Virus record (IMG/VR): IMGVR_UViG_3300025009_000330
Coordinates: 1-27,661 of that record
Length of the DNA stretch: 27,661 nt
Direction: 5' to 3' (one strand)
Source of the DNA: a virus
Under the pieces are notes generated by a model. That model was not told the origin of the DNA and ran no database searches. It saw only the letters and a list, made by a program, of their open reading frames with translations. The translations under genes and the position numbers were made by a program. Each line of letters starts with the position of its first letter. Position 1 is the first letter of the stretch. Below, piece by piece: positions 1,038 to 27,621 of the stretch.

Positions 1038-1382
1038 TCATAATGGTTTATAATCATTAATAACATTAAGGATGTTTTCTAGTTTATCTTTGATTTCAAC
1101 AACCTCTCTATTTAACTTTTCTTGTATAAGATTTTTTTTATAATCATTAGTTGGTTCTGCTATCTTGTAATCACTAACTAATTGTTTATCATCTAAAAGC
1201 CAATTCAAATTACAATCTAATTTCTGAAGCTTTTGAAAAAAATCAAAACCGGGTTTTTGTTTACCAGACAAATAGCGTGATAAAACGGGTTGAGTTATAC
1301 TCATTTCTTCTGCAAAATCTTTCAATTTACCAAACTTTAATTTAGCCCAAAAAACAAGTTTATCTTCAAAAACCAAGCTCAC
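1038..1382 (-). CDS. XRE-family HTH repressor (lysogeny)
   Basis: A 114-aa protein with a helix-turn-helix near residues 17-60: LKDFAEEMSITQPVLSRYLS followed by GKQKPG, the usual recognition helix and turn of XRE/Cro-CI proteins. The tail is charged and probably coiled (KLNREVVEIKDKLENI) and could serve for oligomerisation; there is no LexA-type peptidase domain. It is transcribed leftwards, divergent from the early genes, exactly where the Mu c repressor lies. An 18-bp near-palindrome at 1392-1409, between this gene and the early promoter, is its likely operator. The family call is firm; the repressor role is inferred from position. Confidence 0.8.
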   Translation of the reverse strand: MSLVFEDKLVFWAKLKFGKLKDFAEEMSITQPVLSRYLSGKQKPGFDFFQKLQKLDCNLNWLLDDKQLVSDYKIAEPTNDYKKNLIQEKLNREVVEIKDKLENILNVINDYKPL

Positions 1383-1391
1383 CTCATTTTA

Positions 1392-1409
1392 TTTACCTTA
1401 TAGGGTAAA
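1392..1409. promoter_or_regulatory. Candidate operator, 18-bp near-palindrome
   Basis: TTTACCTTATAGGGTAAA is symmetrical at 8 of 9 half-site positions. It sits 9 bp upstream of the repressor start and 6 bp before the TTGACA box of the early promoter, well placed for a repressor or Ner-type protein to control both directions. Confidence 0.5.
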
Positions 1410-1415
1410 AAACTA

Positions 1416-1446
1416 TTGACAGTAATTACCTAATTCACTAAGTTTG
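1416..1446 (+). promoter_or_regulatory. Early promoter, TTGACA-17-TAAGTTTG
   Basis: TTGACA (1416-1421) and TAAGTTTG (1439-1446) are 17 bp apart. TAnnTTTG is the -7 element of the primary Bacteroidota sigma factor. Start of transcription would be near 1453, about 40 nt before the first early gene. The 8-bp palindrome GTAATTAC (1422-1429) lies in the spacer and recurs at 149-156 in the left end. Confidence 0.55.
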
Positions 1447-1490
1447 TAATAAAATTATTACATAAAATTTTAATCTGATAGAGCCAACGA

Positions 1491-1745
1491 ATGAAAATTC
1501 CTAAAAAAATACAGTTTGAAGATATTCGATTCCACAAAGGACTTATCAGACAAGAAGAATTGAGAAAGCTAACCGGGTTCAAAAGTCAAGGTTTTATATC
1601 TCAATTACTCAATAGAAAACGTTCAAATCCAAAATCAAAGCGTTCTAAAAAAGGAACAAGAACAATATTGCGAAATGCAATTGTAGAATATCATAAAGCT
1701 ATGGGTATTCCGATTGAATTTGTTCCTATGCAATATAATGATTGA
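1491..1745 (+). CDS. Ner/Cro-like small DNA-binding early regulator
   Basis: An 84-aa very basic protein, first of the rightward early operon. Residues about 20-45 (IRQEELRKLTGFKSQGFISQ, then LLNRKRSNP) look like a helix-turn-helix, and a lysine/arginine cluster (KSKRSKKGTR) follows. Its position, directly downstream of the early promoter and divergent from the repressor, is that of Mu ner, which shuts down early transcription and the repressor. Similarity to Ner itself cannot be shown by eye, so the role rests on size, charge and position. Confidence 0.55.
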   Translation: MKIPKKIQFEDIRFHKGLIRQEELRKLTGFKSQGFISQLLNRKRSNPKSKRSKKGTRTILRNAIVEYHKAMGIPIEFVPMQYND

Positions 1746-1784
1746 ACTGTAAAAATTGTATTAAAATAAACCGGGAAGATTTCC

Positions 1785-2261
1785 ATGCGGGAACTTGAAG
1801 ACATTAAAACCGTTATCTATAAAACTATTCATAAAAACAAAAGCAAAAAATCCATTGAGCAAATAGCCGATGAAATGGGTATTGATGTAATGACTTTATA
1901 TAAATATCCATTGCCGGAACCAAGCGGCAGCAACATGCCGCTTAAGAGACTTATACCTTTAATGAAAGCAACCGGCGATTATTCTTTGTTGAAACACATT
2001 GCCGCAATGTGCGAATATATAGTAGTAAAAGTTCCGCGCTTCAAAGCCAGCAAAGGCGACAGCAACGAAATTATTTCCAGCTACCAGGCGACGAGCTGTA
2101 AAGCCTTCAATGATATGATAGAATTTTTTAAGAATAGATCGAAAGAAAATTATCAAAAAGTAACAGAGAGTTTACGCGCTGTAATGGAAGAAAGTGTAGG
2201 AACGCAAAAATATATTGACAAAGAATTCAGCGGTCAACTGGACGCATTCGAACAAGACTAA
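1785..2261 (+). CDS. CII-like phage regulatory protein
   Basis: A 158-aa protein. The first half, KSIEQIADEMGIDVMTLYKY followed by PLPEPSG...MPLKRLIPLMKATGDYSLLKHIA, has the form of the phage regulatory CII / CP76 family: a helix-turn-helix, a substrate loop, then the 'tgD-x-x-L-l-x-x-iA' helix. The second half is helical and charged. Such proteins act as transcription regulators or replication-associated DNA-binding proteins in temperate phages. It is second in the early operon, before the transposase. Family assignment is moderate; the regulated target is unknown. Confidence 0.55.
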   Translation: MRELEDIKTVIYKTIHKNKSKKSIEQIADEMGIDVMTLYKYPLPEPSGSNMPLKRLIPLMKATGDYSLLKHIAAMCEYIVVKVPRFKASKGDSNEIISSYQATSCKAFNDMIEFFKNRSKENYQKVTESLRAVMEESVGTQKYIDKEFSGQLDAFEQD

Positions 2262-2271
2262 GGAGAAAAAA

Positions 2272-2502
2272 ATGAAAAACAAATTATTAACCGGCTTAGA
2301 ACAAGCAAAAAAACTTGTTAAAGAAATTTCTCAGAATAATAAAATCTCGGTTAATTCTGTAGTGATAGAAAGATCGGTGTTGACTGAAAAAATAGTAAAC
2401 ATTGAACTATCACTCTCTCTCTATCGAGAAGAACAAAAACCCGGAGCTGGAAAAGTTGAAGGCTCGTTTATTTCTACCGAACCAGCGGATTCCGAGGATT
2501 GA
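2272..2502 (+). CDS. Small hypothetical early protein
   Basis: A 76-aa protein. The start at 2272 is chosen because AGGAGAAAAA precedes it; an in-frame upstream start at 2215 would overlap the previous gene. The N-terminus is lysine-rich and helical, the C-terminus acidic (EPADSED). No domain is recognised. It lies 10 bp after the CII-like gene and is the last rightward gene before the gap preceding the transposase. Confidence 0.55.
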   Translation: MKNKLLTGLEQAKKLVKEISQNNKISVNSVVIERSVLTEKIVNIELSLSLYREEQKPGAGKVEGSFISTEPADSED

Positions 2503-2769: not shown

Positions 2770-4761
2770 ATGCAACTCAAATCTAACGATTATACAAGTC
2801 TTCTTCCATCCCCCGAAGTTGCTACAACCAGCAAACAATATAAAATTTCTCAACTAGCAGTAAAGCTTAATGTTACAGATAGAGCAGTTCGTTGGATGAT
2901 CGAGAATAATAAGCTACCCGAACAATATGAGTTGATAAAGATTTCCGATAGGAAAAGAATTATTGTAGAAAAGGAAGCGCTGAAGAAAGAGGAACCGAAA
3001 TACATTCACCCTTCCGAACTACCGGCTGATGCAATACTAAATATTACAAATTGTTTGAACGATGCACTCTTTATAAAACCGAGCGGCAAAGCAAACGTTG
3101 CAAAAATTGCAGAGCATGTAAACCAACACTACTGGACTGTAAAGAGATACCTTGAGGGAAATTACAAAGCAAAAGATGAAGCCCGCGCCGATAAAGGAAT
3201 AAGCAGAAAGTACAAACAATACAAACCGCAATCTCAAAAAATTATAAGAGCATGTTTTGAAAAACATTTTCAGAGTTCCGCGCAAATAAATGTACAACAA
3301 GCTATCCGCGCGGTTTACAATGAACTTGGAGAAAGAATACCGGTGCGGCTTGCAACTGAGTGGAAGCATTCTCTGTTAGGCACGCATACGATGAAACATT
3401 ACTACCGAACATTTATAAAAAAATATGTTCCGCATATCCGGCGCGATTTATGGGGAGAAACAAGAAACTTTTTAGATGTTGTAGAATGCGACGTATGGCC
3501 GGTGGATGTTCCTTTTGTTGATGATGAAACAAGAAAACAAATTGATGCAGAGCTGCAAGAATTAAAAAATAAAAATTACGGACAGTGGGAAGAGCAAAGA
3601 ACAAAAGCATACCGCGCGGAAATGTTGGCATTCATTGACCGCAAAACACGCTACCCTTTGCAAATATTAATTTGTCCTCATTCAGTTAGCGCCGTTGATG
3701 TAAAAAAAGGTTTGATGTTATTGATACGCGAATGGGGAATGTTCAAACAACTTTACATTGACAACGGAAGTGAATTCTTTAACGAAACAATAATTGATTT
3801 TATACATGGCATTCATTACAGCGATTCTACATGGACGGAAGGCGGACATAACCAAAAAGTTATTGAGTTAAAACAAGCTGAACAAATTGGAACCGCTAAA
3901 GCATACTCGCCGTACGGAAAAGGTTTAGTTGAAAGATTCTTCCGCGAGAATAAAGACAGATGGGCATCATATCAAATTGCTTATTCACCAAACAGATTTG
4001 AAAGTAGAAAACCAACCTTAAGACTTTCCGCCGTACAACCAACATTGAATTTTAATGAGCTTGCTTTATCGTTGATGAACTTTGTTTACAATGATTATGT
4101 GAACGAAGAGAGACCGGAAATGTTTTTGAATCCGGCTCGGACGAAAGCGGCTGATTGCAACATTGACAGACCGAAAACAATTAAAGAAGCTTTCGACAGA
4201 GCATATGCAAGAGAAGAATATCAAAAACAAATTGTTTCCGATTATGTACTTGCGTTCTACTATGCAGAAAAATTCAAAGTAACATTCCGCGAAGGCTGCA
4301 TAAGATTAACCTACAAAACTTTTGTGATGAGATACATTCCGGTTGATGATGATATTGAAAATATTATCGAATACACTGAAAAGAAAAAAGCTCTCACTCT
4401 CCTACTCAATCCATCTAACATTTATGAATGCTGGTTATTTGACGGCAACAATAGAATAGCGCACGCGCTTGATATTCATTACAACGAAAAGTTAGGTGTT
4501 GGAATGGATAGAGCAAACTACATTCAGAAAATTCAAAACAAAGTTATTGCCGCAACACGTAAGCAGATGAAACTTGTTGATGAATACGAGCACTTAGTAC
4601 GCCACGAAACAATTACAAACAAGTTTACCGAAAGCGATTTTAACCCGAGTGTAAAAATAACCGAGCAACAAAATTTTGAAGAAGAGTTAGCAGTAATTGA
4701 AAAAGAAGCTGATTCCGAATGTGTAAAAAGCATTTGGGATATTGATTTAGATGAAGATTAA
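2770..4761 (+). CDS. MuA-like DDE transposase
   Basis: A 663-aa protein, the same length as Mu A. Residues about 25-75 form a winged-helix DNA-binding domain (KISQLAVKLNVTDRAVRWMI), probably for end or enhancer sites. The RNase H-fold catalytic core follows: D241 in VVECDVWPVD, D331 in QLYIDNGSEF and E388 in GKGLVERFFRENKDRW. The last two are 57 residues apart (56 in Mu A); the first two are 90 apart against 67, so this core has an insertion (about 250-280, charged). The C-terminus is acidic (WDIDLDED) and lacks the basic tail by which Mu A is recognised by ClpX. It catalyses integration and replicative transposition using the end repeats. An AAGGA site precedes the ATG. Confidence 0.93.
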   Translation: MQLKSNDYTSLLPSPEVATTSKQYKISQLAVKLNVTDRAVRWMIENNKLPEQYELIKISDRKRIIVEKEALKKEEPKYIHPSELPADAILNITNCLNDALFIKPSGKANVAKIAEHVNQHYWTVKRYLEGNYKAKDEARADKGISRKYKQYKPQSQKIIRACFEKHFQSSAQINVQQAIRAVYNELGERIPVRLATEWKHSLLGTHTMKHYYRTFIKKYVPHIRRDLWGETRNFLDVVECDVWPVDVPFVDDETRKQIDAELQELKNKNYGQWEEQRTKAYRAEMLAFIDRKTRYPLQILICPHSVSAVDVKKGLMLLIREWGMFKQLYIDNGSEFFNETIIDFIHGIHYSDSTWTEGGHNQKVIELKQAEQIGTAKAYSPYGKGLVERFFRENKDRWASYQIAYSPNRFESRKPTLRLSAVQPTLNFNELALSLMNFVYNDYVNEERPEMFLNPARTKAADCNIDRPKTIKEAFDRAYAREEYQKQIVSDYVLAFYYAEKFKVTFREGCIRLTYKTFVMRYIPVDDDIENIIEYTEKKKALTLLLNPSNIYECWLFDGNNRIAHALDIHYNEKLGVGMDRANYIQKIQNKVIAATRKQMKLVDEYEHLVRHETITNKFTESDFNPSVKITEQQNFEEELAVIEKEADSECVKSIWDIDLDED

Positions 4762-9928: not shown

Positions 9929-9984
9929 AATAGAGAGAAACAAAATGGCACAGACAATAGAGAGAAACAAAATGGCACAGACAA
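9929..9984 (+). repeat. 27-bp tandem duplication of a translation start
   Basis: A 27-bp unit containing AGAGAGAAACAAAATGGCAC is present twice in a row (29 matching bases with period 27). Each copy holds a purine-rich ribosome site, an ATG and codons for MAQT, so the downstream gene has two equivalent in-frame starts nine codons apart. Confidence 0.85.
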
Positions 9985-10370
9985 ATGAAATGTTTTTTTA
10001 CAATACAATTAAAGCCGCACAGCAAATATTAGCTGAATGGATTTTGCCGGATAGCAGAATAACAGACAAATTTGCCCTATCGGAATTATTGGGGATACTT
10101 GACTCCCAAGTGCTGGTAAGGAAAATGTGCGAACTAGAAACAAAAGTATTCCCGTTAATACATGAAAAATTTTGGAAAGATAGTCCAAATGTTGAAAGGA
10201 CTTATTATTCTAAAACTGAAAAAACTATGCAAGTAGAATATAAAAATGGAAACAAATACCGATATACCGAATTTCCATTGGAACTGTGGAATGAATTAAT
10301 CAAGGCTGAATCAATTGGTTCGTTTTTGCATAGGTATGTGAAGGGATGTTTCAGTTACTATAAAGTTTAG
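9945..10370 (+). CDS. KTSC-domain protein
   Basis: 141 aa from ATG 9945, or 132 aa from the duplicated start at 9972. The C-terminal 60 residues (MQVEYKNGNKYRYTEFPLEL, then WNELIKAESIGSFLHRYVKG and CFSYYKV) fit the KTSC domain, a small beta domain named for the C-terminus of some lysyl-tRNA synthetases and widespread in phages. The N-terminal part is helical and unrecognised. It is the last gene of the early rightward transcript, 40 bp before a strong terminator. Biochemical role unknown. Confidence 0.7.
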   Translation: MAQTIERNKMAQTNEMFFYNTIKAAQQILAEWILPDSRITDKFALSELLGILDSQVLVRKMCELETKVFPLIHEKFWKDSPNVERTYYSKTEKTMQVEYKNGNKYRYTEFPLELWNELIKAESIGSFLHRYVKGCFSYYKV

Positions 10371-12467: not shown

Positions 12468-14102
12468 CTAAAAAACTTTTGTTAAATTTCTTTTAGATAC
12501 GGAAATGTAATTGAAGCGCTCCCGCTTGTTGTATAAATAATCCGCAATGTTTTCAGTAAGCAGAATATGATAGAGACAGATAATCAAATCCGCCGCATCA
12601 TCTTTGCTTCCTTCTTTTTTCGAAACAAATTTGAATACTTGTTTAAGAAAAGTTTTTCCCTCTTCGCTTTCGGAAAAGCCCGGAGGAAAAAGAAAAACAC
12701 CATTTTTCCATTCGTTGCTGCATGGTGTAGAAATGTTATCAACAACTAATCTGTAAAAAGTAATGAACGGGAACATTACATTCTCAAGCGCTTCAAAGTT
12801 ATCAATGTGGTTAGTCCACGAACTTTCTTGAGCTACGTTCCCGTCCATTCCAAATATTTGTATGGAACCTAAATTGTTGCACTGATTAACACACTCCAAA
12901 TAATCTTTAAGAAGATCGTTTGCTTTAGCGTAACTTTTACAGCGCGGGAATAGAATAAATATTTTTTTGCGCGTTGGAGAAAAAAACATTCCGGCTAAAG
13001 CTGTTGTATCTCCCTTTCCTTTCTTAGATAAATTTTGGTCAACATACACAGCGCCGGTTAAATCATCCGGGAAAGATTCCCAATCGAATTCAGCATAGAA
13101 CTCTTTTGGAAATACGTGAGCTGATTTTAGAACCGGTCTTCCTTGACCGTTGCCCGCCCAATCGTAAGAATCATTCATTCCCATTAACTTTTGCATTTCC
13201 GCTTCTGATTTAGCGGGATAGCGCGCAAACCAAATTGATTTATATCTACCGGCTCTGTTTTTATCCCATGCGGCGTAATGATGAACAATAAAATCGGGAT
13301 TAAGAATTCCTTTCTCGAACTCTTCAAGCATATCATTTTGAGCGGTGTCAATATCAAAGTTGTTTCCTTCCGCAATCAAAGTGCCGCGCTTACCAAGTGA
13401 GCCGCGCATTTCATTCAACATTTTTATTCTATCATCACGCATTTCTTTTTTGCTTGAGGAGTTTGTTGATTCCCAATCAGTTAAGAAAATTAAACCGTAA
13501 CGTGAAAAAGAATTTGCAAGTCCGCGTGAGCTTCTTTCCATTGAGAGAGCATCTAAATAAGTTCCGCGCGGATTTTTATTTGTACGGACAAAAATTTGCT
13601 CTTTACTTTTTTGAACGAATGTAATTTCAAAATCATGTTGTATGCGTGGCGAGTTTTGCAGAAAGAAAATAATATCAACAATTCTTTTCTTTGCCGGAAT
13701 TAATGTTTCACTGCCAACAGCAATTTGCCTTCTCTTACCATAAAGAATTATTTGAATTATTTTTTTTATGAAGTTGGAAGTGCTTGCAACATCGCGCGGC
13801 TTAATTAGTATGTGCGCTTTTTTATCTTCCAGTTCTGTTAAAGCAGTAATTTCTTTATGAAAAATTCCGGGAGGACAAAAATCTTCATGCACTTCAGGAG
13901 GAAAATAATTCTTATCGAAAAAGAAAAAATCATTTTCGCTTCGTTCAACTCTTTCGGCTTTAGCTTCCGGCGTTCTCTCTTTAGCTGCAAACTTTGAGGA
14001 AGCCGCATATTCGGAAGCAAGAAAAAGTTTTCTCTCATCAGCACTCCGCTCCGCAATTATTTTGTCAAATTCAGAGCTTAAATCTTGTATGAATCCTTCC
14101 AT
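12468..14102 (-). CDS. Terminase large subunit (Mu gp28-like)
   Basis: A 544-aa DNA-packaging motor. The ATPase half shows LIKPRDVASTSNFIKK (101-113), a deviant Walker A without GK[ST], as seen in some phage terminases, and a Walker B-like GLIFLTDWES (203-212). The nuclease half shows acidic residues D355 (VYVDQN), D420 (FGMDGN) and D501/D502 with D505 (KDDAADLI), the usual metal-binding set. AGGAAG precedes the ATG. It lies between the small terminase gene and the portal in the leftward operon. Mu-type terminases package by headful from the phage end into flanking host DNA. Confidence 0.87.
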   Translation of the reverse strand: MEGFIQDLSSEFDKIIAERSADERKLFLASEYAASSKFAAKERTPEAKAERVERSENDFFFFDKNYFPPEVHEDFCPPGIFHKEITALTELEDKKAHILIKPRDVASTSNFIKKIIQIILYGKRRQIAVGSETLIPAKKRIVDIIFFLQNSPRIQHDFEITFVQKSKEQIFVRTNKNPRGTYLDALSMERSSRGLANSFSRYGLIFLTDWESTNSSSKKEMRDDRIKMLNEMRGSLGKRGTLIAEGNNFDIDTAQNDMLEEFEKGILNPDFIVHHYAAWDKNRAGRYKSIWFARYPAKSEAEMQKLMGMNDSYDWAGNGQGRPVLKSAHVFPKEFYAEFDWESFPDDLTGAVYVDQNLSKKGKGDTTALAGMFFSPTRKKIFILFPRCKSYAKANDLLKDYLECVNQCNNLGSIQIFGMDGNVAQESSWTNHIDNFEALENVMFPFITFYRLVVDNISTPCSNEWKNGVFLFPPGFSESEEGKTFLKQVFKFVSKKEGSKDDAADLIICLYHILLTENIADYLYNKRERFNYISVSKRNLTKVF

Positions 14103-14239: not shown

Positions 14240-14764
14240 TTACAGTTCCACATTACTTTTTAGCTTTTCATACTCTTCCAAGTATATTTTCTTGATTTCA
14301 TCCAATTCCAATTCCGGTTGTAAGCGAAGCATAATTCTCATCATTAATTCAGCATTCATTCCCTTCATGTGAGATTGTAATTCGAGCGCTTCCAAATTTT
14401 TTAGCAGTGCCGATGCTTTTTGAATTAATGTAAGTTTAACATCCGGTGCATACGTTCTGGTTTTCAAATCTTTAACAGCTTCATGCAAACTTGTTTGCAG
14501 CATTTCTATAAGAGAAATGTTTTCGCGATCGTTAGGTTGAGTTCCTTCGCTTTGCTCAGGATGCCTTTTCGTTCCTTTGTCGGAACGAACGGCACTTTTC
14601 ATTTTTACTTTGCCGTATATAACAGCATTAACCTGGTGAATTGAACAACCGATATAATCTGCAATTTCTTTTGGTTTATGATTGCCGCTATTGAACATCT
14701 CTTTAATTTCTTTGCGTGTACCGGGAGAAAGTTTAGGAGATTTTTTTCTTTTGAGATTTTTCAT
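14240..14764 (-). CDS. Terminase small subunit-like (HTH, Mu gp27 position)
   Basis: A 174-aa protein. N-terminal helix-turn-helix: TRKEIKEMFNSGNHKPKEIA, DYIGCSIHQVNAVIYGK (residues about 16-53). The C-terminal half is helical with a charged end, for oligomerisation and large-subunit contact. It sits directly upstream of the large terminase. Residues about 59-79 (RSDKGTKRHPEQSEGTQPND) are encoded by a palindromic interspersed repeat inserted in frame at 14541-14590. The start overlaps the upstream stop (ATGA). The gap 14103-14239 to the large subunit holds only the ribosome site and a direct repeat TGGTCATTTT. Confidence 0.68.
   Translation of the reverse strand: MKNLKRKKSPKLSPGTRKEIKEMFNSGNHKPKEIADYIGCSIHQVNAVIYGKVKMKSAVRSDKGTKRHPEQSEGTQPNDRENISLIEMLQTSLHEAVKDLKTRTYAPDVKLTLIQKASALLKNLEALELQSHMKGMNAELMMRIMLRLQPELELDEIKKIYLEEYEKLKSNVEL
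14541..14590 (-). repeat. In-frame interspersed repeat inside small terminase gene
   Basis: TTCGTTCC (14568-14575) and GGAACGAA (14582-14589) form an 8-bp hairpin, flanked by CTTCGCTTTGCTCAGGATGC, whose complement reads RHPEQSEG. That peptide is a well-known translation of repeats widespread in bacterial genomes. The frame of the host gene is kept. Confidence 0.7.
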
Positions 14765-27570: not shown

Positions 27571-27588
27571 CTGCAAAATTTTTTGCAG
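27571..27588. repeat. Near-perfect palindrome at the right end
   Basis: CTGCAAAATTTTTTGCAG pairs CTGCAAAA with TTTTGCAG around TT. It brings an inverted half-site (R3, 27571-27578) against the R2 repeat. It may act as a third transposase contact and as a weak terminator after the last gene, whose stop lies 28 bp upstream. Confidence 0.6.
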
Positions 27589-27598
27589 TTAATTCGCA
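27575..27598 (-). repeat. Right-end transposase binding site R2
   Basis: On the minus strand TGCGAATTAACTGCAAAAAA, continuing into ATTTT; identical over 19 bp to L2. Inner of the two right-end sites. Confidence 0.7.
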
Positions 27599-27601
27599 CA
27601 A

Positions 27602-27621
27602 TTTTTTTGCAGATAATTCGC
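27602..27621 (-). repeat. Right-end transposase binding site R1
   Basis: On the minus strand GCGAATTATCTGCAAAAAAA. Outermost right-end copy; one base differs from the ATTAACTGC core (ATTATCTGC). The spacing R1-R2 is about 23 bp, tighter than L1-L2 (about 57 bp), so the two ends are asymmetric, as in Mu. Confidence 0.75.

Follow-up and report, generated by a model that had tools for sequence, protein, structure and literature searches.

A REP-like repeat read in frame within the linker of a probable small terminase of a Mu-like prophage

The probable small terminase subunit (TerS) of a Mu-like prophage very likely contains a single REP-like repeat, read in frame within a flexible linker that is no longer than that of its relatives, next to an RSDKG motif and a hairpin that are in all likelihood ancestral. 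The repeat would supply about seven to nine residues (HPEQSEG and neighbors), and RSDKG with its hairpin, upstream of these, would be protein sequence that the DNA-binding module inherited from its ancestors. Such a repeat could be tolerated since its core has no stop in this frame and since the linker downstream of RxDKG varies freely among relatives; that the repeat is the later arrival and that its effect is close to neutral is what we infer. This analysis tells apart three things lying together at this site, namely a repeat, a hairpin and a conserved protein motif.

The prophage and its probable small terminase gene

The window, i.e. the whole stretch of 27,661 nucleotides analyzed here (G000:C4:32401-60061), lies within a host genome of 4.4 Mb and, judging from its gene content, contains a Mu-like prophage. 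Indeed, a transposase (2770-4761, plus strand; phrog_310, E 3.5e-15), a Mu-type portal (Portal_Mu, E 1e-45) and a terminase are all present, the large terminase subunit (TerL) being encoded at 12468-14102 on the minus strand (phrog_38, E 2.1e-21). The presence of a Por_Secre_tail secretion domain in one host protein suggests a bacterium of Bacteroidota kind. The host genome encodes a second terminase pair (locus L021, 8174-10476 of G000:C11), probably a second prophage, whose TerL is 41% identical to that of the window and whose TerS has no RxDKG.

Directly upstream of TerL, the ORF at 14240-14764 (minus strand, 174 aa) most likely encodes TerS, as judged from this position, from its predicted helices and from phrog_426 (terminase small subunit), which it matches weakly (E 0.0035). 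Similar ORFs stand directly upstream of TerL in relatives too. Phage small terminase subunits have an N-terminal helix-turn-helix, C-terminal helices and a gene placed before that of TerL, and the probable TerS of the window resembles them in these three respects. It differs from them by the lack of a Pfam match (searched up to E 0.1) and by an RxDKG arm after the helix-turn-helix which is common to the transposase of the phage. A structure search with the TerS model gave no match at E ≤ 0.001 among 312 matches listed up to E 10.

The helix-turn-helix region spans residues 14-50 (14615-14725, minus strand; predicted helices 14-25, 31-38 and 42-50). In the structure model (mean pLDDT 77.6, pTM 0.34), it is followed by a linker with pLDDT below 50 (residues 64-80; 14525-14575, minus strand) and by C-terminal helices (residues 85-173; 14246-14512, minus strand), which are presumed to be the oligomerization part. 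The residues coded by the repeat fall in the linker, that is, in a stretch predicted to be without structure.

The repeat core and its translated copies

The interspersed-repeat core at 14543-14563 (minus strand) is real. It consists of CATCCTGAGCAAAGCGAAGGA, read as HPEQSEG (residues 68-74), and was delineated by searches of the window, the host and the phylum. Its site is the only place in the window within three mismatches, for 0.01 expected from shuffles, and the exact sequence occurs at one place in the host genome. The degenerate pattern TYCTTCGCTTYGCTCAGRATG matches nine host places within two mismatches, and its reversed control none. Furthermore, the core is found within one mismatch in 86 of 395 sampled genomes of the phylum, with the highest copy number (93 + 106) in G347, while the reversed control yielded one match in one genome (G192). 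This scatter points to a mobile repeat. A search of one open-access library with the letters of the repeat found no paper on it.

Copies in other contexts often read TGTC-ATTCTGAGCGAAGCGAAGAAT-CCA, many of them with an inverted second arm. The core has 21 nt and the whole repeat perhaps 26-28 nt; the window copy, in which both tag and tail are missing, may be decayed or partial. An earlier note on this DNA had described a peptide of TerS coded by an interspersed repeat with an 8-bp hairpin. The peptide, its frame and the hairpin are all present, and the part of the probable TerS that separates the helix-turn-helix from the C-terminal helices does contain an in-frame repeat. The extent given to the repeat, about 20 residues, was too large, as the core covers HPEQSEG and the usual flanks add about two residues by eye.

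The core is also translated elsewhere. Among the 36 of 40 loci examined for open frames (no core lay near the center in L050, L054, L056 and L058), seven, the window included, are open for at least 40 codons either side of the core; these seven include L004, L038 and L060, the last probably not a gene. Within genes, the core is read in frame in the TerS of the window and at loci L006, L042 and L046. Pfam matches place the L042 core between the ATP_bind_3 and TilS_C domains of a TilS-like gene (1126-2454, minus strand) and the L046 core in a LuxE-like gene (1090-2082, minus strand); both belong to other genomes of the phylum and are read as CHSEQSEE. The L006 core resides in a Por_Secre_tail protein (Pfam) of the host genome itself, where it forms part of a loop, FEILRFAQKDKW, whose content and length vary among host paralogs; 13 other host places match its 93-residue query.

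In the same loop, the paralogs L128, L129 and L131 hold a second repeat type, GTCATNCCGAGCGNAGTCGAGG. This type matches 42 host places within two mismatches, 30 of which were examined, and its control none. In secretion-domain proteins, it also occurs as GTCATYTCGAGCGNAGTCGAGA, read as RHLERSRE or SHFERSRE directly before SGVYFY. At this C-terminal site, 6 of 12 distinct matches carry it (L155, L156/L107, L160, L162, L164/L128 and L168, all in the host genome), which is not a frequency, many of the loci having been chosen for holding the repeat; L131 (GHFERSRE) looks like a diverged copy there. Repeat-free paralogs, for instance with the reading LHATSLPSGVYFY, are shorter there by several residues. 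One protein carries both repeat types in succession. The copies in secretion proteins do not count as independent events, as the paralogs may have inherited the site.

Passages of PMC3733652 describe CGTC-tagged REPs, which include Rickettsia RPE-4 and RPE-6, are reported in Chlorobi and Bacteroidetes among others, and have intragenic, translated copies. According to these passages, the tag is CGTC, TGTC or CCTC, the stem of 8-9 bp begins with AT and has a loop of 4-5, the 3' unpaired tail is mostly CCA, head-to-head dimers predominate, and no transposase is dedicated to the repeats. Many copies of the present family are alike, with a TGTC tag, an AT-starting stem, a CCA tail and inverted pairs, and a second inverted arm was seen by eye in many contexts (for example L039, L053, L057, L061 and L063). 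The window copy, in contrast, has AGGC at the place of the tag and CTC for the CCA tail (several family copies have TCCA), the pairing predicted for its core has a 3-nt loop and leaves two G-A positions unpaired, and no dimer partner lies near it. By the energy rules used, the repeat in isolation folds no more stably than shuffled versions, 71, 77 and 47 of 200 of which fold as well as the three forms of the core. Because of the missing tag and tail and of this folding behavior, we use the term REP-like and do not count the repeat among the CGTC REPs.

Rickettsia palindromic elements (RPEs) likewise sit in frame in protein genes, but they measure about 150 bp according to the review PMC10969869, whereas the window repeat, of about 21-28 nt, leaves the protein no longer than its relatives. 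Since intragenic REPs and in-frame RPEs are already in print, the window repeat is a further instance of a known phenomenon. A prophage packaging gene thereby joins the protein genes with a translated repeat; the targets named in the passages of PMC3733652 cited here do not include such a gene.

Linker length, hairpin and RSDKG motif

The relatives compared come from 46 loci taken around TerL, 45 of them with an upstream ORF (46 ORFs). Some are redundant: L009 is the phage of the window, L076-L078 repeat L021, L024 and L023, and the proteins of L065 and L067 are identical. The 11-row alignment holds the window and the ten relatives picked by eye as closest; it leaves out TerS-like proteins of another shape without RxDKG (L023, L024, L068-L073, L075, L082, L083, L085 and L086) and proteins unrelated or uncertain (L074, L087 and L090-L105). 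The relatives are distant: TerL, portal and TerS queries of viral_contigs returned the phage's own contig (IMGVR_UViG_3300001199_000391) and distant relatives only, TerL had no match in phage records, and the TerS profile matches 5 of 395 genomes of the phylum. The core is present within three mismatches at none of the 45 relatives' loci; given this distance, an empty site, i.e. the same site without the repeat, was not seen.

Counted from the G of RSDKG up to where the following helix starts, the linker has 20 residues in the window protein and 21, 22, 22, 22, 23, 27, 15, 26, 26 and 28 in the ten relatives. The distance between the helix-turn-helix anchor and a conserved Ala is 93 residues in the window protein, for 89-101 in the relatives. 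The alignment thus gives no support to a lengthening of the linker by the repeat, as the earlier note had it, and the linker is no longer than those of relatives. It follows that either the linker was short before the repeat came in, or the repeat took the place of other linker sequence.

Replacement, in which template switching or gene conversion would have put the repeat in place of linker sequence already there, at about equal length, is a possibility to which we give less than even weight. Without the seven core residues, the linker would count 13 residues, fewer than in all ten aligned relatives, and in the host a core-type copy fills a variable loop of a protein, three paralogs of which have the second repeat type there. 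However, no donor stretch with matching flanks was found in the host, the shorter repeat-free secretion-protein paralogs at the C-terminal site look like the product of insertion, and the old linker of this lineage may simply have been short.

The hairpin is a matter apart. It is a perfect 8-bp one, TTCGTTCC-GACAAA-GGAACGAA (14568-14589, minus strand), and it encloses the codons of RSDKG (residues 60-64; 14573-14587, minus strand), a motif recognized by alignment with relatives. Six of the ten aligned relatives, none with the repeat, have R-x-D-K-G exactly 15 residues past the helix-turn-helix anchor: RTDKG in L022, RPDKG in L079, RSDKG in L080, L088 and L089, and RRDKG in L081; as L080 and L089 are near-identical, the independent cases number fewer than six. 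At the same position L084 has RSDSH, and the motif is missing in the aligned relatives L021, L066 and L065. Among the 46 ORFs upstream of TerL, all TerS types taken together, R.DKG occurs in seven, the window's own included and the other six without the repeat, so the motif marks one TerS type and not all. As RSDKG is conserved in relatives devoid of the repeat, the hairpin does not belong to the latter.

It is improbable, then, that a single mobile repeat comprising both core and hairpin entered the gene in frame and added about 20 residues to the linker. To the credit of this scenario, the hairpin lies against the core, the core is absent from every relative's locus, and none of 2000 synonymous-codon shuffles places a hairpin at exactly this spot; a hairpin of at least 8 bp with a loop of 3-8 arises anywhere in the gene in 108 of the 2000. 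The hairpin is hence mildly unusual, and its place beside the core counts against the reading favored here. Besides the conservation of RSDKG without the core and the length of the linker, what speaks against this scenario is that hairpin and core are not dispersed together, for which reason we reject them as one repeat unit. In 164 genomes of the order, the 61-base stretch holding both was found in the host itself and, for 24 bases corresponding to the core, in G139 only; it has no match among phage or plasmid records. GGAACGANNRGCATCCTGAGC occurs in seven stretches of genome_contigs, with only L029 of these beside similar repeats, and in viral_contigs in the phage's own contig only. The earlier proposal of a repeat in this segment hence stands for the core, dispersed in the host, and falls for the hairpin half, which is protein sequence conserved in distant homologs at the same spacing.

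Finally, that the 21-base match is a codon coincidence in an ordinary basic and acidic linker can be dismissed: relatives' linkers are likewise rich in charged residues, but for the 8-variant family rough arithmetic gives about 1.6e-5 exact matches by chance in a genome as large as this one, and the shuffle expectation for the window and the empty reversed control in the host, given above, speak against a chance match.

A DNA-binding module common to TerS and transposase

The conserved half of the segment has a counterpart within the same phage, in that TerS and the transposase share a DNA-binding module. Profile matches locate a helix-turn-helix followed by RADKGISRK in the transposase (3091-3231, plus strand), and this region and 14573-14725 (minus strand) both display a helix-turn-helix and then RxDKG at equal spacing. 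SRK follows RxDKG in both transposases (RADKGISRK and RADKGKSRK) and in the TerS of several relatives. A profile of seven TerS N-termini (A4, with no transposase inside), searched against 1375 open frames, taken from the window and from eleven further stretches, retrieved the window transposase (E 4.2e-9) and the G150 transposase (E 3.6e-5). Profile-profile comparison of the TerS and transposase modules gave a probability of 96.2 and an E of 2.8e-9 over 45 columns.

In the stretches from G711, G679, G753, G380 and G689, whose TerS has the RxDKG motif, no transposase-like protein with the motif was found, and the window transposase matches only 2 of 15 genomes searched; in both searches the contigs may be incomplete. 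The absence of a motif-bearing transposase beside several motif-bearing TerS counts against sharing as a general rule.

A wider picture, which we put forward as speculative, is that two or more types of short REP-like repeats in this host have come to lie in frame in protein linkers again and again, both at set places in secretion-domain proteins and within a gene for phage packaging, selfish repeats thereby supplying linker sequence, and that, separately, the helix-turn-helix and RxDKGxSRK shared by TerS and transposase may let packaging and transposition recognize the same phage-end sequence. The shared module leads to a testable prediction on a possible link between packaging and the ends of a Mu-like phage.

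Other features of the window were recorded in passing. Rfam returned nothing at gathering score. A 37-nt inverted repeat, 81% complementary (82-118 and 27575-27611) and adjoined by shorter, partly matching arms, lies close to both window ends and possibly represents the ends of the Mu-like element. A perfect tandem duplication of 27 nt (9929-9982) is located at the start of the ORF at 9945-10370, whose protein owes to it its beginning, MAQTIERNKMAQT.
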